From NCBI RefSeq assembly GCF_020055635.1, contig NZ_JAIPUT010000011.1, positions 1 to 64,000 of the forward strand: a stretch of 64,000 nt of DNA, read 5' to 3'. A program made the position numbers and the translations under genes. This document shows, in pieces, positions 42,463 through 44,423 of this stretch; within the stretch, counting starts at the first letter, position 1, and every line of letters begins with the position of its first letter. This DNA comes from Marivita sp. GTDB lineage: Bacteria > Pseudomonadota > Alphaproteobacteria > Rhodobacterales > Rhodobacteraceae. The notes under the pieces were generated by a model. The model did no database searches and was not told the DNA's origin. It saw only the letters and a program-made list of their open reading frames with translations.

Positions 42463-43539
42463 TCAGTGCGGGTGGGTTCCGCCATCTGCGCGCGCGAAGC
42501 CGTGAAAGAATTCCTCGAAATGATGCGATGACGTTTCCGCCTGGGCAAGAACGGTCATCGCCTCGGGGGACAGACGTCCCTCCATGTGCATCCGCATGGT
42601 CATCCAGTCACCGCTGCGGGCGTCGTCCAGATGGAACATCGCCTCGGACATCTCGCGCATCGGGGCGGCCCGGTCCATGCTTCGGTCGAACCGCATGCGG
42701 CCCTCGACGAACCCCTTGGAAAACGCGCCATGGCCGGTCATCGCCTGGTGCCAGTTGCAGACCAGGAATTCGTGATAATCGTCCTGAACGCTGACCGCAG
42801 CGCCATCGGAGACCGAGAACAGGGCGGTTTCACGGGTCAGCCAATCGGTCCAGAGCGCGGGCGGCACGTCGCCGGCATAATGCATGGCGATGCAGATTTC
42901 CGACAGCAGGTCGGCGTTCTGTTCGATGAAGGCAAGCAGCCCGGCAAAGTGCAGGCTGCGCCGGGCGGCCGCGTCCAGTTCCGGATCGCAGCGGCCATAT
43001 TCGCTGAGATAGAACACGATATGCGTCAGCTCGTACGCCGCCTTCTTGTTGGGCAGCGCAAAGGTGTCGGATCGCGCCATGAAGGCCCGCGCGCGGTGTT
43101 CGAGCGCCAGCACATCGTCGCTGGCCGACACGTCGCGGCGGGCAAAGAGGCGCACCGCTTCAAGTCGTTGCAGGTCGGACAGTTCGGCTTGTGGCAGGGT
43201 CTGGTCATGCGCCCACTGAACCAGTTGCTCGGCCTGGTCGCCGGGCATCCCGAGATCCTCGAGATCGAGCGCGATCGACAGGAAGAACCGGTAATATTGC
43301 GGAAAGAACCGAAGACGTTTTCCGACGGTCTCGTAAAATCCCGCGTAGACATCCAGAGCCGCATCGCCCGGCGCCGTGCCGGTGCATTCCAGGATATTCA
43401 GGATCTCGGCGTTTTCCTTGAGCCAGAAAACATCGTCCCCGAAGCGGCGGTGCGTGGCAAAGCAGCTCAGAAGCGCGCCGAGGCGCGCTTCCTGTGAGTT
43501 GATCCGGGACGGGGGGGTAAGTTGGATGACGTTTGTCAT
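42463..43539 (-). CDS. 358-aa helical protein of unknown function, partner of the repeat protein
   Basis: I do not recognise the function. The 358-aa product is soluble and nearly all alpha-helical by composition, with no signal peptide, ATP motif or membrane segment. A conspicuous segment YELTHIVFYLSEYGRCDPEL (residues 169-188) looks like a conserved-site motif, and HEFLVCNWHQAMTGH (256-270) supplies three further His. The C-terminal part is His/Phe-rich (SSHHFEEFFHGF). AGGAGG lies eight bases before the ATG, a strong ribosome site. It is directly downstream of the tandem-repeat gene on the same strand, after an attenuator-like hairpin, so the two probably form one unit. Enzymatic processing of, or binding to, the repeat protein is an inference. 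Confidence 0.75.
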   Translation of the reverse strand: MTNVIQLTPPSRINSQEARLGALLSCFATHRRFGDDVFWLKENAEILNILECTGTAPGDAALDVYAGFYETVGKRLRFFPQYYRFFLSIALDLEDLGMPGDQAEQLVQWAHDQTLPQAELSDLQRLEAVRLFARRDVSASDDVLALEHRARAFMARSDTFALPNKKAAYELTHIVFYLSEYGRCDPELDAAARRSLHFAGLLAFIEQNADLLSEICIAMHYAGDVPPALWTDWLTRETALFSVSDGAAVSVQDDYHEFLVCNWHQAMTGHGAFSKGFVEGRMRFDRSMDRAAPMREMSEAMFHLDDARSGDWMTMRMHMEGRLSPEAMTVLAQAETSSHHFEEFFHGFARADGGTHPH

Positions 43540-43557
43540 GTTCCATGCCTCCTAGGG

Positions 43558-43581
43558 AAAAACAGGACGGCCACCCCGTCC
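43558..43581 (-). terminator. Attenuator-like hairpin between repeat gene and 358-aa gene
   Basis: Read on the minus strand: GGACGG, loop GGTGG, CCGTCC, then TGTTTTT. A 6-bp GC stem and five T give a moderate intrinsic terminator that starts 17 bases after the repeat gene's stop codon. Partial read-through would give much upstream protein and less downstream protein. Confidence 0.65.
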
Positions 43582-43597
43582 CGGGTCAGTCGCGCGC

Positions 43598-44080
43598 TTA
43601 CGATGCAGAGGTGAACAGGGCGCAGCCTTCGCCGTCGTCCGTGGTCTTGGCGGTGACAGGGCTCGATGCCGAGGTGAAGGCCTCGACCGCATCACCAGTG
43701 CGGGCGTCGGACGTGGTCGGCGTGGAGGCAGAGGTGAACGCCTCGACCGCGTCGCCAGTGCGGGCGTCGGACGTGGTCGGCATGGAGGCCGAGGTGAACG
43801 CCTCGACCGCGTCGCCGGTGCGGGCGTCGGACGTTGTCGGCGTGGAGGCCGACGTGAACGCCTCTACCGCATCGCCGGTCCGGGCGTCGGACGTGGTCGG
43901 CATGGAGGCTGAAGTGAACGCCTCGACCGCATATCCCATGAGGGCGTGAGAGGCAGAAGGCAGCGACGCGGATGTGAACATTTCGGTCGCATCTCCGTGA
44001 TGAAGATCCGCTTCACCTGCATTATTGCGCTGAGTCTGAACGGAAATCTCGGTAACGTCGAATTTACGAAGTGCGGTCAT
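43598..44080 (-). CDS. 160-aa tandem-repeat protein with seven FTSAS motifs
   Basis: The product begins MTALRKFDVTEISVQTQRNN and reaches the first FTSAS at residues 35-39. The motif recurs at 55, 75, 95, 115, 135 and 156, exactly every 20 residues until the last. Units 3-6 are nearly identical (PTTSDARTGDAVEAFTSAS), alternating M and T before the Pro. The chain ends exactly with FTSAS, and its single Cys is at 153. No signal peptide or membrane segment is visible. AGGAGG precedes the ATG at good spacing. The leader-plus-repeated-core layout resembles multi-core precursor peptides, but a self-assembling or adhesive repeat protein is also possible. Not recognised as any characterised family. 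Confidence 0.8.
   Translation of the reverse strand: MTALRKFDVTEISVQTQRNNAGEADLHHGDATEMFTSASLPSASHALMGYAVEAFTSASMPTTSDARTGDAVEAFTSASTPTTSDARTGDAVEAFTSASMPTTSDARTGDAVEAFTSASTPTTSDARTGDAVEAFTSASSPVTAKTTDDGEGCALFTSAS
43664..43963. repeat. Five coding 60-bp tandem repeats
   Basis: This DNA-level array encodes the 20-residue units of the FTSAS protein. The four central units differ at only a few bases, which suggests recent expansion by slippage or recombination. Codons are those of the host, so there is no sign of foreign origin. Confidence 0.9.
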
Positions 44081-44177
44081 GGTATGGCCTCCTATTGGCT
44101 GGTTGAATGAGCCAAGGCTGGCACGTAAAAATTGAATAGTAGAAGCGAAAAAATCGTTAAACGTGTGTATTCGGCGA

Positions 44178-44261
44178 TTATCCACACGAGCTTTCACCCC
44201 TAGGTTGTTCCGATTGCACCGCTCCTCGAGTTATCAACAAGTTGCAGAAAACTGGGGATAA
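44178..44261. other. Cluster of three DnaA-box-like 9-mers
   Basis: A perfect consensus box TTATCCACA lies at 44178-44186, a one-mismatch box TTATCAACA at 44231-44239, and TTATCCCCA on the opposite strand at 44253-44261. An AT-rich stretch lies just to the left (44127-44165). The whole 44081-44423 gap contains no other gene; it separates the divergent repeat-protein gene and xth. A possible -10 element TACTAT for the repeat gene lies at 44136-44141 on the minus strand. Confidence 0.55.
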
Positions 44262-44423
44262 CTTTCTGGCGGGGCGGTCCGGCTGTCTGTCGGGCCGGCG
44301 TCACGGGCGATTGAAGCCGCGACTCACCCGTGATGAAACAAGTTTCGCAGACGGATTCGGGGCGATCCCCGCTTGTGTGCGCTCCTGCTTCTTGGGATAG
44401 AGAGGCAATCCGGGAGGCCCTTT

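Follow-up and report, generated by a model that had tools for sequence, protein, structure and literature searches.

What is made by a gene that encodes the five-residue word FTSAS seven times, and does the gene directly after it act on the product? We asked this of one locus in a stretch of 64,000 nucleotides, called here the window. An earlier note, made from the sequence of the window, had singled out the repeat gene, listed first below, and read it as a possible precursor of several identical peptides.

43598-44080, minus strand: candidate multi-core precursor gene, 160 aa and stop, seven FTSAS units
44088-44093, minus strand: Shine-Dalgarno-like AGGAGG of the precursor gene, read from sequence
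43979-44080, minus strand: leader-like N-terminus, residues 1-34, first flank GDATEM included
43964-43978, minus strand: core 1 FTSAS, TTC ACA TCC GCG TCG
43904-43918, minus strand: core 2 FTSAS, TTC ACT TCA GCC TCC
43844-43858, minus strand: core 3 FTSAS, TTC ACG TCG GCC TCC
43784-43798, minus strand: core 4 FTSAS, TTC ACC TCG GCC TCC
43724-43738, minus strand: core 5 FTSAS, TTC ACC TCT GCC TCC
43664-43678, minus strand: core 6 FTSAS, TTC ACC TCG GCA TCG
43601-43615, minus strand: core 7 FTSAS, TTC ACC TCT GCA TCG, exact C-terminus

The translated open reading frame starts with MTALRKF and ends with CALFTSAS and the stop. We located FTSAS at residues 35, 55, 75, 95, 115, 135 and 156 (n = 7), the seventh copy being the exact C-terminus, which confirmed the seven copies and the ending on the motif that had been claimed. 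The spacing had been described as exactly 20 residues; this held for five steps, and the last step was 21. None of 20,000 residue shuffles of the protein contained more than two FTSAS. Units 3 to 6, reported as nearly identical, have indeed near-identical DNA, and a tandem repeat of period 60 lies at 43668-43932 (4.4 copies, 91% match). The flank before core 7 is GEGCAL, and this last-unit flank was found also in several Marivita relatives. At the other end, the start M-[TSN]-A-x-x-K is common to many relatives, and a helix is predicted at residues 4-21 in a structure model of low confidence; we infer that the N-terminus acts as a leader. The gene is single-copy in its own genome (a single match at E 7e-93; three further ones have E 0.4 or higher).

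Searches of the repeat protein against Pfam and NCBIfam gave no family reaching the cut-off, in agreement with the earlier note, and no match was obtained against PADLOC. Two PHROG matches (20.6 and 21.9 bits, to profiles of 39 and 50 positions with unknown function) were rejected as they look like low-complexity matches. The MoeA_N, SNAP and PRK10680 matches from the Pfam and NCBIfam searches were dropped, being far below cut-off.

The second gene of the pair lies on the same strand, 58 nt 3' of the precursor gene, and has its own AGGAGG.

42463-43539, minus strand: DUF6902 gene (Pfam PF21843), 358 aa, proposed peptide-modifying enzyme
43548-43553, minus strand: Shine-Dalgarno-like AGGAGG of the DUF6902 gene, read from sequence

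Its product matched PF21843 (DUF6902) with E 1.6e-173 and 577 bits against a cut-off of 27. In the window the pair is flanked by exonuclease III-like and Fe-S biosynthesis genes. According to Pfam, the nine neighbours between 37.2 and 49.4 kb are argS, a Na/H exchanger, an HD-domain hydrolase, the Fe-S biosynthesis and exonuclease III-like genes, BolA, glutaredoxin, ZapA and transketolase, all of housekeeping types. Pfam detected no lasso cyclase or leader peptidase gene among these nine, and no dedicated protease or peptide exporter either; the latter counts against reading the repeat protein as a precursor.

We observed that the two genes occur together. DUF6902 was present in 69 of 248 sampled genomes of the window's family, Rhodobacteraceae. 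A repeat-unit profile built from three-unit stretches matched 65 of the 248, and when the genome lists were compared by eye, all 65 were inside the 69. As for the DUF6902 genomes without a profile match, G041 and G099 have two-core precursors with the words YIAGL and MMCCS, the contig of G139 starts inside DUF6902, and in G039 no precursor was found between the exonuclease-like gene and DUF6902. The open reading frame upstream of DUF6902 was initially chosen by repetitiveness, which favours repeats, and the unit-profile search is the independent check. A named genome collection contained 308 relatives, and among the best 80 of 308 a repeat reading frame lay upstream of DUF6902 at 79 of 80 loci, the exception (L133) having a run of N there. 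These best 80 of 308 are named as Rhodobacteraceae genera or as unclassified alphaproteobacterial MAGs, with one odd title excepted, and the closest of them are mostly Marivita (76-83% identity). The odd title is that of L183 (JAFKDC010000021.1), a record which holds the pair and is named after Enemella evansiae, an actinobacterium; a wrong name or a mixed record is the probable reason.

A class-wide sample of 385 genomes gave 5 DUF6902 matches, namely the window genome, 3 genomes of the same family and 1 weak match below the cut-off. Over the cut-off, DUF6902 was found in one bacterial family only across the 248 family genomes and this sample, and a search of plasmids gave no match. The linkage extends to the surroundings: both window flank genes were within the fetched stretch at 54 of 70 family loci and at 64 of 80 named loci (best 80 of 308), some of the other loci being cut by contig ends. 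At L097 neither flank gene is present and the pair lies in another neighbourhood.

The homologues share one architecture. A short non-repeated N-terminus, mostly of 22-32 aa before the first unit at the named loci listed, is typically followed by 2-20 copies of a core word. In most units of the window protein the flank before the core reads G-[DE]-x-x-x-[MAL], and behind each core comes x-P or the protein ends. Leader-like and core regions, as are expected of the ribosomal precursor of a RiPP, were found in the window and in its relatives, and the gene beside the repeat gene, adjacent and co-occurring, encodes a putative enzyme.

These features were quantitated over 115 repeat proteins; each had three or more scored units, and exact duplicates were left out. 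At seven of 70 family loci the scan scored no unit. A run of N accounts for L062 and contig ends for L102 and L103, no precursor was found at L101, and L096, L098 and L100 have precursors with two copies, recognised by eye. The scan scores core columns too and may miss units with other cores; only 7 of 791 majority-word core intervals were 24 residues or longer, therefore few units were missed. The spacing of cores was 20 or 21 residues in 726 of 791 intervals and perfectly constant in 44 of 115 proteins, which is more regular than a release linker needs and counts against the precursor reading. The AlphaFold model of the window protein counts against it as well, as its predicted short strand at each unit (pLDDT 53.5, pTM 0.44) is also expected of a scaffold.

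The repeat could therefore be structural, a beta-solenoid or amyloid-like stack in which the cores lie like on like and DUF6902 serves as chaperone, cap or anchor. The spacing and the predicted strands would suit such a stack, and like-on-like contacts would likewise account for cores that agree within proteins and differ between them. The same model, however, is of low confidence, and in 13 of 115 proteins (L041, L047, L061, L091, L142, L145, L155, L156, L157, L164, L169, L179 and L180) cores stand only 8 residues apart as doublets, for example MFTSGLVQMFTSGL. Further, four relatives (L089, L096, L098 and L100) have two copies only, too few for a stack. Together with the evidence from DUF6902 given below, this makes a structural repeat unlikely in our view.

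We observed that the word is uniform within a protein and variable between proteins. Core residues 2-5 were identical in every scored unit of 107 of 115 repeat proteins, while 34 different words at these residues were found across the 115. Identity at residues 2-5 was 0.97-0.99 within proteins and 0.43-0.80 between them, and the flank columns gave a much weaker contrast than the core. We compared codons within proteins by pairwise counts, in which proteins with many units weigh more: 18,395 core codon pairs contained 7,628 silent and 470 amino-acid differences, as against 5,540 silent and 7,916 amino-acid differences in 22,074 codon pairs of the six residues before the core. As the word stays uniform despite many silent changes, we conclude that selection keeps the word of a genome uniform.

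These counts also bear on the possibility that the gene is a neutral tandem repeat, produced by recent DNA duplication and encoding a protein with no specific function. The near-identical DNA of units 3 to 6 fits this, and the units of some relatives, L111 among them, look recently amplified. However, no two of the seven window cores have the same codon string, therefore they are more than simply fresh DNA copies. Silent differences prevail in the core and amino-acid differences in the flank, only 8 of 115 proteins have a scored difference at residues 2-5, and the pair stays near the same two housekeeping genes at the 54 of 70 family loci mentioned above. We regard neutral duplication as highly improbable.

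Between genomes the word changes often. The full word changed at least 51 times on a DUF6902 tree of 114 rows, a quick tree with 49 of 111 inner branches open, from which one of the 115 proteins was dropped as its DUF6902 row was too short. FTSAS was the majority word in 2 of 114 rows only; Marivita-named loci (best 80 of 308) and the window had FTSAS, FTSGS, FTSGL, FTCGL, FTTSC and IMSAS. A search for homologues with EAFTSAS, as suggested earlier, would miss most of them because the word changes between species and the architecture is constant; the repeat homologues that such a search was meant to find do exist, with their 2-20 copies. The proposed layout of a multi-core precursor was likewise borne out by the homologues, with their N-terminus and copy number, by the adjacency of DUF6902 and by the uniformity of the word at protein level.

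Differences between close relatives suggest how the word may change. It differed in 5 of 30 DUF6902 pairs at 85-90% identity and in 15 of 35 pairs at 80-85%. At L040 and L138, whose DUF6902 proteins are 95.5% identical, core position 2 is Thr at one locus and Ser at its counterpart in 4 of 4 flank-matched units (GDATEM, GDATQM, APSLNTTALS-GEGTQM and GERTEM). In the GERTEM unit the cores are one base apart (ACT versus TCT) and the following TCG GGC AGC is unchanged, which fits a separate point change for that unit. The other three units have silent changes too and could reflect short conversion tracts. The units of L111 look newly amplified, and separate point changes and amplification both lead to uniform words. 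Words were unequal at residues 2-5 in L060, L069, L074, L083, L084, L085, L141 and L159, the last with FTSGS eight times and FTTSA three times; these eight proteins have possibly been caught in the middle of a word change.

We then consider what DUF6902 does. The 358-aa protein also matched PF21836 (DUF6895) with E 2.2e-21 and 76.9 bits against a cut-off of 23.8, and hhalign of 51 DUF6902 against 7 DUF6895 sequences gave a probability of 96.6 and E 5e-10. Residues Y169, H173, D210, E214, Y255 and H256 were invariant in 51 of 51 DUF6902 rows, and their counterparts Y184, H188, D229, E233, Y289 and H290 in 7 of 7 DUF6895 rows; the Y-H pair is aligned in MAFFT and shifted in hhalign. A paper by Shi et al. 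2026 presents, by its title in the reference list of PMC13352647, a DUF6895 protein as a lasso peptide epimerase. The AlphaFold model of DUF6902 was almost all helical (pLDDT 91.5, pTM 0.90). Foldseek with this model found no solved relative at E 0.001 (best E 0.21), so an enzyme role draws no independent support from the fold.

In G039 the diverged DUF6902 (L101:4902-5996, about 26-27% identity), beside which no precursor gene was found, has all 6 of the 6 residues common to DUF6895 changed, including H173 to Q, E214 to R and Y255-H256 to L-T. No other genome that has the 5' end of DUF6902 on its contig was found to be without a precursor. Judged by the aligned residues, it appears to be a natural loss of the signature. 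It is a single case, which limits its weight for the enzyme reading. A chaperone role for DUF6902, as the structural reading supposes, would not predict an H, E and Y-H set that is lost together with the precursor, as in this one case.

The pair could also be a signal and its receptor. In Rap/Phr-type signalling the gene of a helical protein lies beside a short-peptide gene. Here the released pentapeptides would be species-specific and the all-helical DUF6902 would be their intracellular receptor. A five-residue word, uniform within a protein and often different between close species, would be expected, as would a helical fold, and some weak Foldseek rows were TPR-like (E above 0.6). However, no Foldseek match was below E 0.2, the strongest conservation lies in the catalytic-looking set common to DUF6895 and no pocket was seen to change with the word, and the nine neighbours include no peptide exporter. 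Co-variation of DUF6902 residues with the word, tried for one column, gave only 9 independent pairs on well-supported branches. In contrast to Rap/Phr, a precursor here can hold up to 20 copies, its gene comes first, and the set of conserved residues is enzyme-like. We think that a receptor role is improbable, and return to DUF6902 as a modifying enzyme.

Further, we read six DUF6895 loci. A short open reading frame lies just upstream of DUF6895 in five of them and one gene further off in one, and an aromatic motif is present towards the C-terminus of the short frame at 5 of 6. At L188 two frames of about 65 aa, with the ends GRWYVYVGTEE and GPWFVLAGDQT, directly precede DUF6895, and at L189 a 143-aa frame has two units, GPWYIYKE and GPWFVLKE. 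The small frames before DUF6895 contain YVLAWERYVLVV at L206, YVLAWDKYVLVV at L207 and EWELATKHFLLRG at L208. At L209 (NZ_CP023408.1, Streptomyces fungicidicus plasmid p1) a 62-aa frame that lacks the aromatic motif is followed, one gene further on, by two DUF6895 genes. Therefore, on these six loci, the layout of a short reading frame followed by DUF6895 or DUF6902 is wider than Rhodobacteraceae. None of the short frames at the six loci has long repeats, and the grouping of DUF6902 with such a family argues against the structural reading. In two further families DUF6895 was found in 1 of 144 and 1 of 151 genomes, at already known loci only. The L209 cluster as a whole, with a cytochrome P450, the 62-aa frame, an unknown gene, the adjacent pair of DUF6895 genes and a hydrolase of the beta-lactamase family, resembles an uncharacterised peptide cluster.

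Taken as a multi-core, RiPP-like pair, DUF6902 probably modifies the repeat precursor. Translation of the repeat gene would yield a precursor in which a short leader precedes seven identical FTSAS cores, and the leader and the recognition-like flank would bring each core to DUF6902. Each core would be a substrate of the enzyme; the likeliest reaction is acid/base epimerisation of one residue, with the shared Y/H, D/E and Y-H residues as acid/base residues. We suggest this chemistry by family resemblance, and give it slightly less than an even chance. An unlinked general protease would then free the cores as peptides. A genome would be held to one word, as all its copies have to be read by a single enzyme or a single later target.

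Several known systems resemble this one in part. The available text of PMC5934393 describes the multi-core microviridin precursor AMdnA, with three cores, and its ATP-grasp ligase AMdnC, and calls such processing rare. As far as that text goes, the window system is alike in having several cores on one ribosomal polypeptide and, as proposed here, a single modifying enzyme. AMdnA/AMdnC has three cores and ATP-grasp lactone chemistry, whereas the family of the window has up to 20 cores of a five-residue word, and no ATP-grasp gene is present among the nine window neighbours. The DUF6895 epimerase of Shi et al. 2026, as its title presents it, belongs to a related family with the same invariant Y/H, D/E and Y-H and a precursor-like frame upstream. 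Unlike it, DUF6902 forms a Pfam family of its own, goes with a repeat precursor, and has no lasso genes among the neighbours scanned. The lasso peptide epimerase MslH epimerises a residue of a ribosomal precursor, and the title of PMC10406935 names its metal dependence; judging from this source the likeness is epimerisation on a ribosomal precursor, which for DUF6902 is only proposed. The DUF6902 profile matched no PDB chain at E 10 or better, and thus has no sequence link to MslH.

We found no literature on the precursor and DUF6902 pair in a search that covered chiefly open-access journals; in this literature DUF6902 was not mentioned by name, and DUF6895 was named once, in a 2026 review. 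The pair points to an undescribed family of bacterial peptides. It differs from known multi-core precursors in its short word, its up to 20 copies, its uniformity within a genome with change between species, and its DUF6902 partner. Tentatively, and with some doubt, we propose a new class of multi-core peptides of marine Rhodobacteraceae, with a lineage-specific five-residue word in up to 20 copies that would be epimerised by DUF6902 and act as a recognition signal. On this view the word switches in every copy at once, and part of the switch consists of point changes made unit by unit. A hypothetical protein and a domain of unknown function become in this way a testable pair, present in 65 of 248 sampled family genomes. 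If the proposal is true, the pair is a compact system for tailoring peptides, and the scanned neighbours include no further gene dedicated to it. With a single word in each genome, 34 words in 115 proteins and switches of the whole set between close relatives, the pattern makes a natural experiment on what reads the peptides, and the DUF6902/DUF6895 group gains a residue signature with one natural case of its loss.

Lastly, we looked at the sequences around the two genes. At 44081-44423 the precursor gene and the exonuclease III-like gene are separated by a divergent intergenic region; it was among the regions covered by a consensus search for a sigma-70-like promoter, which found none. The following element lies between the precursor and DUF6902 genes.

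43563-43583, minus strand: GC-rich hairpin followed by a T-run, 8 pairs, loop of 5

In the window one hairpin of strict terminator form was found, against 0.8 expected in shuffles. Between the genes of the pair the strict form occurred at only 5 of 112 loci, the window counted, and a terminator was rejected as a general feature of the pair. Folding of whole intergenic stretches gave no clear excess of stability (mean z -0.61, 12% below -2, 112 stretches), and RNAalifold on a MAFFT alignment of the intergenic stretches gave no consensus pair. We observed that GC-rich intergenic hairpins are enriched in the relatives, with a mean best score of 13.3 versus 8.6 in mononucleotide shuffles of 106 intergenic stretches, and the intergenic hairpin perhaps lowers expression of the enzyme relative to the precursor.
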